DNA from: an uncultured Prevotellaceae bacterium
Lineage (GTDB): Bacteria > Bacteroidota > Bacteroidia > Bacteroidales > Bacteroidaceae
Length of the DNA stretch: 42,249 nt
Direction: 5' to 3'
Assembly (NCBI GenBank): GCA_902776195.1
Contig: CACYPF010000018.1
Span: 1-42,249 of the forward strand
Numbering within the stretch: position 1 is the stretch's first letter; each line of letters begins with the position of its first letter. Both the position numbers and the translations under genes were made by a program. The notes under the pieces are model-generated. The model was not told the DNA's origin. It worked only from the letters and a program-made list of their open reading frames with translations, and made no database searches. This document shows, piece after piece, positions 3,334 to 40,026 of this stretch.

Positions 3334-4489
3334 AATTCGAGAATTCTTCTCAAAACCGTTTTTCAGCGACTATCGCACGCTGTTCGGGTTATGGATGCTG
3401 TTGCCCATTATCATGTGGCTGACAAAGATGACGCGTGCCAACAACTACGACATCTATCGTGGTTCGTTCTGGAATGCGGTACGAGGGTGGAACCTCTACA
3501 TGCCGAATCCTGCGGAGTATGCTGACAGCCATCACTATGGTCCGCTGTTCTCCTTGTTGTTCGCACCCTTTGCCATCGGTCCTAAATGGATAGGACTGCT
3601 GTTGTGGGGTATCGCCTTGACCCTGTTCCTTTACTGGGCTATCCGCAAGTCACAATTCACGAAATACCAGCAGGTGTTCATCCTGTGGTTCTGTGCCCAT
3701 GAGATGCTGACGGCACTCTTTATGCAGCAGTTTAATATCGCCATTGCAGCCACCATCCTGCTTGCCTACTACCTCATTGAGAAGGAGAAAGACTTCTGGG
3801 CAGCGTTCTTTATCATGTTGGGTACTTTTGTGAAGGCATATAGCATTGTAGGACTCGCCTTCTTATTCTTCTCGAAACACAAGGGGAAGTTGATTGGCGG
3901 ACTGCTGTTTTGGGCAGTGATCATGTTCGTGGCACCAATGCCTTTCTTCCATGGATGGGACTATATTGTCAGCCAGTATCATGAGTGGTACCTCTCCTTG
4001 GTTGAGAAGAACTCGCTGAACGCAGGCTCTATCATGCAGAATATCTCCCTGCTAGGGATGGTACACCGTGTGACAGGCTTGCAATTCAGCAACCTCTGGT
4101 TAATCATCCCCGGTATGGTGCTGTTTGCCCTACCTTATCTACGTATTGACCAATATAAAAATGTAGCTTTCCGGCAGACCCTGCTTGCGTCAGTGATGAT
4201 GTTCATCATCCTATTCTCCACGGGCAGTGAGTCAAGTGGCTATATCACCCCGTTCATCGGTATCGTCATCTGGTATACGGCAGTACCTTGGCAGCGCAAC
4301 GGATGGGACATCTTCCTGTTGGTGTTCGCCTTCATTCTGTCGAGCATGTCGCCCAGCGACCTCTTCCCTGCCTATCTGCGTAAGGAGTTTGTACAGCCCT
4401 ATGCCCTGAAGGCACTACCCGTCACCATTATCTGGTTGAAACTTTGTTACGAAATGCTTACAAAAAATTATGGAAATATCAGTCATTAG
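3323..4489 (+). CDS. GT87-like (DUF2029) polyprenol-dependent glycosyltransferase, first copy
   Basis: A polytopic protein of 388 residues with about ten predicted membrane helices. The acidic residues and an HHYGPLFSLLFAP-type loop after helix 1 resemble the GT87 family (PimE-like mannosyltransferases), which use polyprenyl-phosphate sugars in the periplasm. Tandem ATGs at 3323 and 3326 overlap the end of gtrA, so translation is probably coupled. The frame is open further upstream, but that part only shadows gtrA. It ends inside the GT2 gene (20-bp overlap). With GtrA and the GT2 enzyme it fits a synthesis-flip-transfer pathway; the sugar is unknown. Confidence 0.7.
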   Translation: MMNKIREFFSKPFFSDYRTLFGLWMLLPIIMWLTKMTRANNYDIYRGSFWNAVRGWNLYMPNPAEYADSHHYGPLFSLLFAPFAIGPKWIGLLLWGIALTLFLYWAIRKSQFTKYQQVFILWFCAHEMLTALFMQQFNIAIAATILLAYYLIEKEKDFWAAFFIMLGTFVKAYSIVGLAFLFFSKHKGKLIGGLLFWAVIMFVAPMPFFHGWDYIVSQYHEWYLSLVEKNSLNAGSIMQNISLLGMVHRVTGLQFSNLWLIIPGMVLFALPYLRIDQYKNVAFRQTLLASVMMFIILFSTGSESSGYITPFIGIVIWYTAVPWQRNGWDIFLLVFAFILSSMSPSDLFPAYLRKEFVQPYALKALPVTIIWLKLCYEMLTKNYGNISH

Positions 4490-5396
4490 TCCAGTATATG
4501 GAGCACCGACCCTGTTGCACGAATTGGTGCGGCAGATAGAGGAGACCGTCAGTAAGTTGACCGCAGAGTATGAGATTATCCTTGTGGAAGATCATAGTCC
4601 CGACAACAGCCGGGAGATTATCACCGAAATCTGTGAGAAGAACAAAAGGGTGAAGGGCGTGTTCCTCAGCAGGAACTTCGGACAGCAGTATGCGCTGAAC
4701 GCTGGTTTCGACCTGTCGACGGGCGATTATGTGGTGACCCTCGACTGTGACCTGCAGAACCCACCCGCACAGATCAAAGACCTCTACGAGAAAATCAAAG
4801 AGGGGTACGATATCGTGTTCGCATCGAGACAGAACCGCCCAGACAACTTCTTCATGACGCAGGGGTCGCACCTGTTTAACAAACTGATGGGATTCCTCAC
4901 AGACACCAAACAAGACGAGGCGGTCGCTGAGTTTGCCATCTACCGCAGGAAAGTGGTGGATGCCATGGCTGAGATGGGTGACTACCGCCGCTACTATCCG
5001 CTGATGAACCAATGGGTGGGTTTCAAAACGGCAAAAGTAATGGTCAACCATGACGAGCGGACGGACGGTAAAGAGTCGTCATACTCCATGCGCAAGCGTA
5101 TCGACCTTGCCGTGACGACCGCTGTGTCGTTCTCCACGAAGTCGTTACGACTAATTGTCTATTTCGGAGTGCTCATCACCTTCTTCGCCATCATCCTCGC
5201 CCTCATTCTTACCATCAAGACCTTGGTGATGGACACGAGGGTCAGCGGATGGGTGACCCTGTTCGTCTCCATGTGGTTTATCGCCGGTATCCTTGTCACA
5301 GTGATCGGTGTCGTTGCGGTATACATCGGCAACATTTTTGATGAGGTGAAGCACCGTCCGTCCTATATTATTGATGAGAAACTGAATTTCGAATGA
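4470..5396 (+). CDS. GT2 polyprenyl-phosphate glycosyltransferase (GtrB/DPM1-like)
   Basis: A 308-residue enzyme with an N-terminal GT-A domain: VSPVYGAP at 5-12, VEDHSPDNS near 40 and the DxD-type motif LDCDLQNPP near 92. Two membrane helices follow (about 228-252 and 262-286). This is the layout of GtrB and bacterial DPM synthases, which load a hexose onto undecaprenyl phosphate on the cytoplasmic side. It starts within the end of the upstream GT87 gene and overlaps the next by ATGA (5393-5396). It is the likely source of the donor used by the flanking GT87 proteins. Confidence 0.85.
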   Translation: MEISVISPVYGAPTLLHELVRQIEETVSKLTAEYEIILVEDHSPDNSREIITEICEKNKRVKGVFLSRNFGQQYALNAGFDLSTGDYVVTLDCDLQNPPAQIKDLYEKIKEGYDIVFASRQNRPDNFFMTQGSHLFNKLMGFLTDTKQDEAVAEFAIYRRKVVDAMAEMGDYRRYYPLMNQWVGFKTAKVMVNHDERTDGKESSYSMRKRIDLAVTTAVSFSTKSLRLIVYFGVLITFFAIILALILTIKTLVMDTRVSGWVTLFVSMWFIAGILVTVIGVVAVYIGNIFDEVKHRPSYIIDEKLNFE

Positions 5397-6622
5397 GCAA
5401 AAAGATCTTTGAGAACAAGTATTTCTGGTGGGGACTGGGACTCGTCATCGTCCTCATCGCTACCTCCGTGGAGGTTTTCCGTGGCAGGAACACCAATTAT
5501 TTTGACTATCAGGACTCCACCCGAATGTTCTGGGAGGGACTGAGTCCCTATAACTTAGAGTATGCACAGGCACACCAGATATATTTCCTTTACTCCCCTG
5601 TGTTCAGTGTTCTCTTCGCTCCCATCTTCTTTCTGCCATGGTGGTTAGGACCCTATATATGGAACATCGGCAACTACACCCTTTTCTCACTTGCCATCAA
5701 ATGGCTGCCCCAGCAACTGGAGAAATACAAGCTCTATATCTTCATTTTTCTGTTGTCGGTAGTGCTGCAGACCGTGTTCTGCTATCAGCATAACATCATC
5801 GTCGCATATATCTATATCTTCGCCTTCATCCTGCTGGAGCGAGGAAAAGGTTTCTGGGCAGTCTTCCTCATCATGCTGTCAGCAACAACGAAGATATACG
5901 GTGCCGCCGAGCTTGCTATCCTATTCTGCTATCCCAAGACATGGCGCAACTTCGGGTATGCCGCACTCTGCGGGGCTTTCTTCCTGCTGCTGCCTGCCAT
6001 TAATACCAACTTCGACAATGTCTTTGTGCTCTACCAGCAGATGTTTGACATGATAGCGGCTCATCATAGTGATTCCGATTTCACAGGAATCCTGTTTGCA
6101 CGAGGGCTGAAACCCTTCCTGCTGCCCAACTACCGTCTGGTGCAGCTAACGACGATGGGCATCCTCGCTGTCCTTTTCTTCTGGCGTTATAAACGATGGA
6201 GCGACTTCCGCTTCCGGGTACGGGCATTAGGGGTACTGACAGGGTTTATGATACTCTTCAGCGACTGTCCCGAGACCCACACCTATATCATCACCTTCCC
6301 CTTCTACGCCATGGCTTTCTGGTTGCAGGAAAAGCGGACGTGGTTAGACTGGACACTGTTCTGGTCGTTGGTGGTGAATTTCTGTATTCTGCCTACCGAT
6401 GTGCTCTGCCCCGCCTGGTTGCATAACTTCGTTCACCGCACGTTCTGGCTGGATGTATATACGTATTTCTTCTGCTGGCTGAGAATGATATGGTTGGCAG
6501 TGGGACCGGAAATAGAAATGAAGGGAATGAAAGAAATGAAAGGAATGAGTCATCGACGAAGTCGCTTTTACAAAGAGCGAAGCTCGACTAAAAGAAATGA
6601 AAATGAAGAAATGGGGAAATGA
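5393..6622 (+). CDS. GT87-like (DUF2029) glycosyltransferase, second copy, with repeat-derived C-terminus
   Basis: A polytopic protein of 409 residues with about ten membrane helices, similar in layout to the copy at 3323 (N-terminal helix, YFDYQDSTRMFWEGLSPYN loop, FLYSPVFSVLFAP). It starts by ATGA overlap with the GT2 gene. The last 40 or so residues, after WLAVGPEIE, are not membrane-like: they are encoded by GAAATGAA-type tandem repeats and a 19-bp dispersed repeat (6549-6567), giving a Lys/Arg/Glu/Met-rich tail. That tail is probably a recent extension caused by repeat insertion. The two GT87 copies presumably add different sugars or act in succession. Confidence 0.7.
   Translation: MSKKIFENKYFWWGLGLVIVLIATSVEVFRGRNTNYFDYQDSTRMFWEGLSPYNLEYAQAHQIYFLYSPVFSVLFAPIFFLPWWLGPYIWNIGNYTLFSLAIKWLPQQLEKYKLYIFIFLLSVVLQTVFCYQHNIIVAYIYIFAFILLERGKGFWAVFLIMLSATTKIYGAAELAILFCYPKTWRNFGYAALCGAFFLLLPAINTNFDNVFVLYQQMFDMIAAHHSDSDFTGILFARGLKPFLLPNYRLVQLTTMGILAVLFFWRYKRWSDFRFRVRALGVLTGFMILFSDCPETHTYIITFPFYAMAFWLQEKRTWLDWTLFWSLVVNFCILPTDVLCPAWLHNFVHRTFWLDVYTYFFCWLRMIWLAVGPEIEMKGMKEMKGMSHRRSRFYKERSSTKRNENEEMGK
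6515..6612. repeat. Repeat block in the 3' end of the second GT87 gene
   Basis: GAAATGAA-like units run from 6515 to 6550, then comes the dispersed 19-mer at 6549-6567 with a partly complementary arm AGCGAAGCTCGACT (6578-6591), then more GAAATGAA units (6593-6612). The block is read in frame as the tail of the GT87 protein. Confidence 0.6.
6549..6567. repeat. Dispersed 19-bp repeat, copy inside the GT87 gene
   Basis: Same 19 bases as at 40027-40045. Here it is flanked by GAAATGAA tandem units and read in frame as SHRRSR. Confidence 0.75.
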
Positions 6623-38422: not shown

Positions 38423-38452
38423 AAAAACCGAGGTGATACAACCTCGGTTTTT
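38423..38452. terminator. Bidirectional intrinsic terminator between cysS and the C1 peptidase
   Basis: AAAAACCGAGGT (38423-38434) pairs with ACCTCGGTTTTT (38441-38452) around a 6-nt loop, with T-rich tails in both directions. It touches the stop codon of the leftward gene. Confidence 0.88.
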
Positions 38453-39279
38453 TATTGTCCATACGCCTCCCGTGTCATATAGACGGCGACGGTCTTGTCA
38501 CGCAAATAAGGTGCCGACATATACATCAGTCCGTCGTAGGGATTATTCGTACCCCATGAGTTCTTCATGGTGAAGAACATCCGTCCGTGAGGGTCACGGG
38601 CTATACCTATTATTGCCATACAGTGGTTGTCTGTCGGCTCGGTATTGAAATGACTGTCGGCAATACCCTCTGCGAACGAGAATCCCAGTTCATTGATGTC
38701 ACCCTCCCAACAGACGGCATGACGGTTGCGGATGGCTCGCTCGACATGGGCGAGCAACGAGTCCTTGGGGATATTCCAGAAACGGTTACGCTCCCAGTTG
38801 TCGGGCAGGTCTAACACCACATACCGGTTATAGGGATAGTCCTCGTTGGAGGTCAGGGCGATATACTCATCAGGGGCACAGACACTATGAGCGAACTCCT
38901 GGGGGGTATAGCGGGCTCCCAGCATAAACACCCATTTCGGAAGGGGCAGCTGGTGATAGGTGGAGTCGGGATAGACATCATAAGGTACGATACCCTGTCG
39001 CCCTATGATATTCAATAAGGTAGAACCCATGGCACGCAAGTGCCGTTTCTTCATCACCCTCTCGATATACGCCGTCGACAGATGCACGGAGTCCCCTCGT
39101 GCGATATGCTCCGACTCTATCGTGGCGAGCATCGCATACGCCCAGCAGTAATCAGTATGCCCCTGGTCCTTGACAGGTGTCATCGGCAGCCGTACCTCAT
39201 CCGTAAACACCACCTTCGGTCGTTTCTGACAACCGACAAGGGCGAATACCATGAGTAAATAAAAGAGTCTCTTTATCAT
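38452..39279 (-). CDS. Papain-like (C1) cysteine peptidase lipoprotein
   Basis: 275 residues from ATG 39279. The N-terminus is a lipoprotein signal with lipobox ALVGC (C17). The C1 catalytic set is complete: oxyanion Q39 in PVKDQG, nucleophile C45 in DYCWAYA, H219 in TDNHCMAI and N240 in MKNSWGT. It resembles bacterial C1A peptidases without a clear propeptide. The frame continues 16 codons further upstream, but the -7 box at 39287-39294 makes ATG 39279 the sensible start. Probably anchored at the outer membrane and active on extracellular or periplasmic peptides. Confidence 0.85.
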   Translation of the reverse strand: MIKRLFYLLMVFALVGCQKRPKVVFTDEVRLPMTPVKDQGHTDYCWAYAMLATIESEHIARGDSVHLSTAYIERVMKKRHLRAMGSTLLNIIGRQGIVPYDVYPDSTYHQLPLPKWVFMLGARYTPQEFAHSVCAPDEYIALTSNEDYPYNRYVVLDLPDNWERNRFWNIPKDSLLAHVERAIRNRHAVCWEGDINELGFSFAEGIADSHFNTEPTDNHCMAIIGIARDPHGRMFFTMKNSWGTNNPYDGLMYMSAPYLRDKTVAVYMTREAYGQ

Positions 39280-39286
39280 TTGGCGG

Positions 39287-39294
39287 CAAAGATA
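39287..39294 (-). promoter_or_regulatory. -7 element of the C1 peptidase gene
   Basis: TATCTTTG on the minus strand, 7 bp before ATG 39279. Implies a very short leader. Confidence 0.65.
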
Positions 39295-39335
39295 ACATAA
39301 AATTTCGATTAAACGAAGAGAAAGCACGTGAAATT

Positions 39336-39372
39336 AAAGAAACTGTCGCAGACCCTCGCGGGCTTGCGACAG
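39336..39372 (-). terminator. GCGA-capped hairpin with U-rich tail, likely end of the ncRNA
   Basis: On the minus strand CUGUCGCA pairs with UGCGACAG (39372-39343), with an inner CCC-GCGA-GGG cap, followed by UUUCUUU (39342-39336). It lies upstream of the C1 peptidase promoter and would insulate it. Confidence 0.6.
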
Positions 39373-39497
39373 ATACTTTGCCTTCCCTTTGGAGGCGTTT
39401 TCCTTCAAAAACTGACCTACCCTCACGGGCAGGCAGTTTGCTTTTAACATTTTAGTTTAACAATTAAACATTTTCCTTGTTACCAAGAAAAAGTCGC

Positions 39498-39551
39498 CGC
39501 AAAAGCGAGGAGTCGAACCTCTCCACTGCTCACCGTCTGAGCCGCTTTGCG
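39498..39551 (-). other. tRNA-elbow-like three-way junction without anticodon arm
   Basis: In the minus-strand RNA CGCAAAGCG (39551-39543) pairs with CGCUUUUGCG (39507-39498), leaving one bulged U. Inside are a D-arm-like hairpin GCUC-AGACGGU-GAGC (39542-39528, with GG at the G18-G19 position) and a T-arm-like hairpin GAGG-UUCGACU-CCUC (39521-39507). GGUUCGACUCC matches the tRNA B-box exactly. Only about six nucleotides separate the two arms, so there is no anticodon arm, and no CCA follows. Confidence 0.55.
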
Positions 39552-39903
39552 CTCTTCCACAAAAACCATAGAAAAAAATGCCCTACCCACGCTGTGACAT
39601 TACACACGCCACGGCATACTACACCCTGTAGGCATATATATGCAAAGAGAGTATCGCCATCACTGGCATACACCTTAATAACATATAAAAGGGAAACAGT
39701 AGCCGCAGGCGAATGTAATCATCTACCCACGCGGACGCCTCTGTTGCATCACCTCTGTACGAATAATCAAACTTGCGAGATCTGAAATCACAGACAGGTA
39801 ACGTTAGAAAACGCCCTTCCAAGACTGGTCGTACAACTGACCTAAGGTCTCATTCCAACAATATTGTTTTAAAGCCGTCCACACATGGACACACTTACAA
39901 ATG

Positions 39904-39935
39904 CAAAGGTAGTGCTTTTATTTGAATCCGCCAAA
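39904..39935 (-). promoter_or_regulatory. Promoter of the candidate ncRNA
   Basis: Minus strand: TTTG (39935-39932), 20-bp spacer, TACCTTTG (39911-39904). Both boxes are identical to those of the lpxL-type promoter at 14120-14151. The expected start of transcription is near 39898. Confidence 0.75.
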
Positions 39936-40026
39936 TAATTTCCTGTTTTTTTGACTTTCCAACGTTAACGATATTATGGGGCATCTTACGAAAAGTCTTT
40001 TACAAATTAAGGAAGTGAATCATGCG

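Follow-up and report, generated by a model that had tools for sequence, protein, structure and literature searches.

The question raised by this locus is what is specified by some 560 nt, on the minus strand of the 42,249-nt stretch of DNA analysed here (the window), in which no credible protein is apparent. The window is contained in contig C18 of an uncultured Prevotellaceae genome (G000; 93.55% complete, 42 contigs). A sequence-only reading had proposed that a promoter is followed here by a large, ornate and orphan non-coding RNA, perhaps linked to neighbouring KilA-N and RhuM genes. The features discussed below are as follows.

39904..39935, minus strand: promoter TTTG-N20-TACCTTTG (sequence; a motif of the same type lies upstream of homologous leaders)
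39877..39890, minus strand: 5′ hairpin P0, GUCCA-UGUG-UGGAC (stem with paired changes across six long copies; alignment, by eye)
39727..39819, minus strand: domain X, homologue of the 5′ half of a Bacteroidales leader RNA (covariance model R2, 92.1 bits, E 9.5e-17)
39755..39793, minus strand: address block inside X, matching leader C9 of the same genome
39784..39790, 39775..39780 and 39758..39763, minus strand: the parts of the address, namely the H1 strand, the A-loop UCUCGC and the H3 strand, respectively
39580..39726, minus strand: variable arm and end of the leader-like part (alignment with leaders)
39489..39553, minus strand: tRNA-like domain (model R1, 90 bits; fold of three copies)
39471..39492, minus strand: GUAA-loop hairpin (sequence and fold; overlaps the end of the R1 model)
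39440..39469, minus strand: block GTTTAATTGTTAAACTAAAATGTTAAAAGC, identical in six long copies, that of C37 having one inserted base at the block end
39411..39438, minus strand: terminator-like hairpin with GUGA loop and U-run (sequence; paired changes among copies, by eye)
39343..39372, minus strand: second terminator-like hairpin, GCGA loop (sequence and fold)
38452..39279, minus strand: next gene, a C1-family peptidase-like protein (Pfam PF03051/PF00112)

The proposed promoter was present, with TTTG at 39935-39932 and TACCTTTG at 39911-39904, separated by a 20-nt spacer; we take it to be of the Bacteroidetes -33/-7 type. No minus-strand ORF inside 39336-39935 exceeds 67 aa. The 3′ module of the window copy contains a frame of 38 codons, which was rejected as a protein gene, as it is stopped or shifted in the copies from C33 and C3 (alignment, by eye). 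The RNA is strongly structured: the folding energy of 574 nt was -203.3 kcal/mol, as compared with -168.8 ± 5.9 kcal/mol for dinucleotide shuffles (n=100), giving a z-score of -5.81, and none of the 100 shuffles was as good. All four of the GNRA-capped hairpins were located on the minus strand (GUGA at 39656-39667, GUAA at about 39471-39492, GUGA at about 39411-39438 and GCGA at 39343-39372). A covariance search of the whole window against Rfam 15, in which ROOL, GOLLD, OLE, tmRNA, RNase P, 6S and the riboswitches are represented, gave no family at the gathering score, and a permissive scan of 39250-40000 gave three matches, all sub-threshold. ARAGORN found no tRNA or tmRNA gene in the window or in 16 loci, and no Rfam family reached the gathering score in 16 loci with copies. 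Likeness to group I or II introns, RNase P or retrons was set aside on the basis of their motifs. The peptidase-like gene has a promoter-like TTATCTTTGC of its own and is regarded as separate from the RNA.

The description of this sequence as a large non-coding RNA is supported by the fold z-score, the paired stem changes among its copies, and the lack of a long frame and of an Rfam match; its description as an orphan is wrong. A blast search of G000 with the element yielded 17 matches, comprising the query, four near-full copies of 81-85% identity, a copy on C37 in two pieces, and shorter ones. There are six such long forms in G000, on C18 (the window), C33, C3, C4, C15 and C37, and in their alignment stems are kept through paired changes and a 30-nt block is common to all (by eye). 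The proposed link to accessory genes proved weak, RhuM being found near two of the six long forms (C18 and C37) and KilA-N near one (Pfam). These further copies had escaped the sequence-only reading, as had the tRNA-like domain at 39489-39553 and a U-run behind an internal hairpin at 39572-39578.

The first 270 nt or so of the long forms also occur in a widespread RNA, which is shorter and differs in its 3′ half. This short form, of about 390 nt, consists of X and a second domain, Y; a long form consists of the hairpin domain X and the tRNA-like domain, and lacks Y. The leader-like part of the window RNA ends at CGTGGG (39591-39586), where Y would start, and is followed by U7 at 39578-39572. 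Model R3 (E up to 1) found no Y domain in the window or in the five loci with the other long forms. Since the X model matches the window RNA (E 9.5e-17) and the Y model finds nothing, it is a relative of the leaders in long form and not itself a leader.

In total, 136 leader copies distinct in a 120-nt core were collected, and TAnnTTTG lies upstream of 124 of them, a raw count made with no chance control. X was detected in 87 of 150 genomes of the genus by model R2, Y was detected in 101 of them by model R3, and blast detected the short form in 71 of the 150, the weakest rows being short and possibly due to chance. A pattern on the leader 3′ half occurs in at least 118 stretches of GTDB genomes; among the matches listed are Prevotella, Xylanibacter, Bacteroides, Phocaeicola massiliensis, Parabacteroides and Muribaculaceae. 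Leaders were also seen on MAG contigs labelled Clostridia, Pseudobutyrivibrio, Lachnospiraceae or Clostridium (L090, L093, L094 and L158), for which a binning error seems likelier than transfer. A second, divergent subgroup, in which about 130 nt separate X from Y, is represented by G000:C5:37750-37833 and many low-scoring R2/R3 pairs. No leader match was obtained when eight leader loci were searched against Rfam (E up to 1), the sole match being Bacteroidales-1 (L144, 1052-1228), an unrelated RNA that lies outside the leader. A plasmid search with the window element, a phage search with one leader and a search of IMG/VR with three patterns (0 matches each) were all empty, and a phage or plasmid origin was set aside on that basis.

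The position of the short form with respect to genes is informative. A same-strand start codon was found within 400 nt after the U-run in 76 of 80 loci, and at 50-95 nt in 46 of the 80 (automatic ORF pick). Among 67 loci, the first downstream frame of at least 100 aa was on the same strand in 61, on the opposite strand in three and absent in three; the upstream gene was on the same strand in 32, on the opposite strand in 24 and absent in 11. As the downstream frames are mostly on the same strand and close behind the U-run, the short form is a leader, of very diverse genes. Behind 11 of the 80 leaders is a gene for a Cys-rich peptide with the motif (Q/K)SRR(E/D)FFK, possibly the precursor of a modified peptide (L081, L086, L087, L090, L098, L105, L107-L109, L135 and L147). 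In G000, five of the six leaders precede a BspA-type LRR protein (PF13306) of 774-980 aa (E values: C8, 2.4e-57; C14, 9.4e-25; C6, 7.3e-25; C27, 2.7e-25; C31, 1.1e-17), and all six operons contain a gene for a 45-54-aa peptide, with LxGS in four of them (by eye). Behind leader C9 the large frame is broken into pieces, the longest of which has no Pfam match, and the small peptide gene is intact (L272).

Long-range pairs in the leader became apparent from mutual information in 124 copies. The loops of X, the 5′ hairpin, and of Y, the 3′ hairpin, pair at three sites, termed H1, A-loop:B-loop and H3. Pairing was then counted in 43 of the 136 leaders (75 passed a pattern, 45 of these were sampled and two were left out), with the two leader parts aligned separately. 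Paired cells numbered 252/258 for H1, 257/258 for A-loop:B-loop and 264/297 for H3, with 10, two and 17 further pair types, respectively, and for each of the three sites no row shuffle in 1000 was as high as observed. Strong covariation, advised by the sequence-only reading as a check, was therefore found, but in the related leaders. Helix g (GCAACG:CGUUGC) was paired in 242 of 253 cells, a count that proves nothing because its pairs are nearly invariant. The hypervariable contacts between X and Y argue against a single pocket for a small ligand at that place; other parts could bind such a ligand. In one leader of another genome (L215, G107:C4), X fits its own Y poorly and Y is identical to that of the paralogue L218; the X of L215 may have been swapped.

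The U-run was considered as the 3′ end of the leader and ruled out by complementary sequence beyond it. A hairpin presenting GGGAG follows the U-run, and 130 leaders were readable there. GGGAG occurs within 170 nt in 79 of the 87 leaders with CUCCC (controls: CTCCC, 2; GAGGG, 7; CCCTC, 4), and 22 of the 43 leaders with another 5-mer hold its complement, as compared with a mean of 7.3 and a maximum of 17 for random downstream regions (n=500). The CUCCC:GGGAG pairing past the U-run indicates that the leader continues beyond it. From its sequence the leader could possibly also form a competing terminator, GGCGUGGG:CUCCCACGUC-U6; this alternative, like helices g and h, consists of near-invariant pairs, which prove nothing. 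The leader family appears to be a new class of large structured RNA, and would remain so even if the trans-acting role proposed below for the window RNA were to fail.

The tRNA-like domain has an acceptor-like stem, a D-like arm (GCUC-AGACGGU-GAGC) and a T-like arm with UUCGACU, the loop of the latter being of the TTCGA type (nine copies aligned, three folded). From the alignment, it is devoid of an anticodon arm and of a 3′ CCA. The z-scores of the three folded copies were -0.18, -2.85 and -0.29, so folding energy alone is no evidence for the domain, and the T-like arm was drawn differently or short in two of the three folds. Model R1, built from the window copy and eight others, matched six copies in G000, and copies were found in 8 of 399 genomes of the genus. 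The domain lies 3-6 kb downstream of a leader, on the same strand and behind the operon, in 4 of 100 leader loci, these being 8-kb stretches in which many operons are cut. Of the nine copies in G417, six are behind a leader, which in one case is truncated by a contig end; a long form accounts for another, and two are without a leader in the stretch read. Of the five copies in G166, three are placed behind leaders by their coordinates (C70, C81 and C88), another belongs to a long form, and the fifth has no leader within 9.5 kb. G315 has five copies; the one examined for a leader is behind one. These placements behind leader operons make [leader]-[operon]-[tRNA-like domain] a recurrent unit, and the long form looks like such a unit minus Y and cargo. 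The domain probably marks a site of 3′-end processing of the RNase P/Z type, a guess from its shape and place.

Other arrangements of these parts were also seen. In L188, L303, L310, L311 and L313, tRNA-like domains occur with no leader detected in the stretch read, at least that of L188 being directly behind a gene for a small peptide. In L022 (G000:C8) the 3′ module of the long form is found by itself, at 4731-4902, 5625-5796 and 3619-3650, where it flanks small gene pairs that look like toxin-antitoxin or DUF3990-type genes (by eye), as if at the borders of a cassette. Two apparent X-only copies, G166:C47 and G130:C48, were dropped because both end at contig ends, and G166:C37 and G130:C53, which are close to contig ends, were left out of the count.

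Comparison of the six long forms with the six main leaders of G000 (C9, C14, C6, C8, C27 and C31) bears on what the window RNA might recognize. Five of the six long forms share an address with one leader each: C18 with C9, C15 with C14, C37 with C31, C33 with C6, and C3 with C27. Over 33 columns of the address, mean identity was 0.945 for the five pairs and 0.652 for the 31 other combinations; for the window it was 0.91 to C9 and 0.55-0.67 to the other five leaders. In the flanks there was no cognate excess (0.629 for cognate and 0.650 for other combinations over 90 columns upstream; 0.699 and 0.708 over 95 columns downstream), and the likeness is thus confined to about 33 columns. The assignment ranked first of 720 in the address, and 632nd and 571st in the flanks. 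A chimeric assembly as the cause of the matched addresses was rejected, since a join would change one flank only and neither has a cognate excess.

The same pairs emerge from predicted duplex energies. For all five long-form X domains, the cognate Y of the same genome is the best of 151 distinct Y, at -27.3 to -31.5 kcal/mol as compared with medians over Y of -11.6 to -16.5, and 1 of 720 assignments was as strong. The window X forms a duplex of -29.5 kcal/mol with the Y of C9, its best among the 151; it thereby has the specific complementarity to a defined target that is expected of an antisense RNA. The X:Y duplex of C9 itself is -30.2 kcal/mol. As the cis and trans duplexes are equally strong, an RNA acting in trans must compete with the intramolecular partner. 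There are six differences in all within the five cognate pairs. H1 and the A-loop are free of them; the A-hairpin stem contains three, and the other three are located at the outer end of H3 or immediately beyond it. For the long form on C4, no cognate Y was found in G000 within 3 mismatches; its best Y (-26.8 kcal/mol) is in another genome, and the divergent Y of C5, considered as its partner, was rejected, as the duplex was only -19.5 kcal/mol and C5 is a divergent leader. Leader C8 has no matching key among the six long forms. R3 counts eight Y in G000, the eighth being outside this comparison.

The five pairs had been noticed before they were tested, so independent genomes matter as a check. 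One long form was found in each of G166 and G417, and long forms are known from only these three genomes, so that most of the leaders, which are common, are without a known key. The best own-genome Y for the G166 long form was -25.8 kcal/mol and the next -21.3 (7 Y compared of 8 counted); for that of G417 the values were -23.0 and -20.6 (nine Y, from the loci read, including L150 and L153). These margins are modest. In both genomes the best-pairing leader is on the same contig, about 9-10 kb from the long form. The two long forms look orthologous, judged by common downstream sequence; their X hairpin persists though the rest has diverged, and between the two the address core is identical at 29/29 positions, the flanks being 92% and 87% identical.

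Taken together, these data make it fairly probable that the window RNA is a trans-acting key, which recognizes leader C9 through a three-part loop-loop address and competes, in an address-specific manner, for Y. The address, its match and the capacity for such pairing are demonstrated in silico, as is structural selection on X:Y; we infer that the RNA is expressed and binds, and in which sense it acts. In the leader, pairing of X with Y would hold the two halves together, and this clasp would keep GGCGUGGG in helix h and ACGUC-U6 in helix P1, so that RNA polymerase would read through into the surface-protein operon. The long RNA, when made, would bind Y in trans; the halves would then separate, GGCGUGGG would pair with CUCCCACGUC before the U-run and transcription would stop. 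Because loss of the cis clasp would favour the terminator fold, the key may repress its operon. An operon-specific repressor is slightly preferred here to an activator, activation taking all of the remaining likelihood.

A different origin of the matched addresses lies at the level of DNA: the long forms would be decayed or truncated leader operons in which short gene-conversion tracts keep the address equal to that of one leader, with no function in trans. This is unlikely, yet it has points in its favour. The long form looks like [X]...[tRNA-like domain] minus Y and cargo, and the tRNA-like domain also ends leader operons; the proximity of long form and cognate leader on one contig in G166 and G417, and the seemingly swapped X of the G107 C4 leader, also speak for it. 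Against it, the flanks are without cognate excess and the likeness is limited to about 33 columns, and the orthologous long forms keep the address core while their flanks diverge. The sparing of H1 and the A-loop also speaks against it, weakly, there being only six differences. It is a good deal less probable that the long form is a stand-alone structured RNA and that the ligand of its X hairpin, a protein or a third RNA, recognizes the X of the leader as well, the match reflecting shared recognition with no direct X:Y pairing. Persistence of the hairpin in the long forms of G166 and G417, which have diverged elsewhere, speaks for this reading, but the matched stretch holds bases that covary with Y in leaders, and binding of a protein would not call for six addresses that all differ from one another. 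A neutral, MITE-like intergenic repeat without function is very improbable: several long forms do lie close to contig ends or have unrelated genes on either side, and in C8 the 3′ module stands alone, but the fold z-score, the kept promoter, the paired stem changes (by eye) and the address specificity all argue against it.

A broader reading has about an even chance of being correct, namely that Y-less trans RNAs with hypervariable three-site addresses form a lock-and-key code, each addressing one paralogous surface-protein operon through a pseudoknotted leader RNA of this family, which is absent from Rfam, with mutually independent control of the repertoire. In the gut and rumen, Bacteroidales are dominant, and they have many surface proteins. 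Such a code would amount to an RNA layer that names single paralogous operons individually, undescribed as far as the literature was searched, in a leader family that is common in the genus sampled, X having been detected in 87 of 150 genomes. The matched trans RNAs make the role of this ornate RNA directly testable, with six locks, six keys and five predicted pairs.

A literature search found no such RNA in print, the parts of PMC8040213 that were covered included; that paper reports thousands of candidate RNAs, and an unnamed entry among its supplementary candidates may correspond to it. ROOL, GOLLD and OLE are, according to the portion of PMC12286853 consulted, bacterial RNAs of the same size class with a complex fold, ROOL being named for its rumen origin. 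Unlike these, the window RNA has no Rfam match, and the same portion of PMC12286853 makes no mention, for ROOL, GOLLD or OLE, of a leader position, variable addresses or trans/cis pairs.

The leader family resembles riboswitches and attenuators in being a large structured 5′ leader with a U-run, in front of diverse genes and in one to several copies per genome. It differs from them in that its pairing continues past the U-run (CUCCC:GGGAG) and its X:Y loops are hypervariable and copy-specific. The tRNA-like domain recalls mascRNA, at the 3′ end of MALAT1, in its small cloverleaf-like fold with D-like and T-like arms and its place in the 3′ region of a transcript; unlike mascRNA, it is bacterial, lacks an anticodon arm and CCA, and is a putative processing signal.

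The closest parallels are with loop-loop antisense systems, of which plasmid CopA/CopT, RNAI/RNAII and the type I antitoxin RNAs are examples. In these, likewise, the loop of a structured trans RNA pairs with one cognate leader, and paralogous pairs can be orthogonal. We know of no loop-loop antisense RNA or antitoxin that is a Y-less copy of its target leader carrying one of several hypervariable addresses. Unlike the trans RNAs of these systems, the window RNA is homologous to the 5′ half of the leader itself and would compete with the copy present in cis, its contact would be a three-site loop-loop interface, and its targets would be surface-protein operons.
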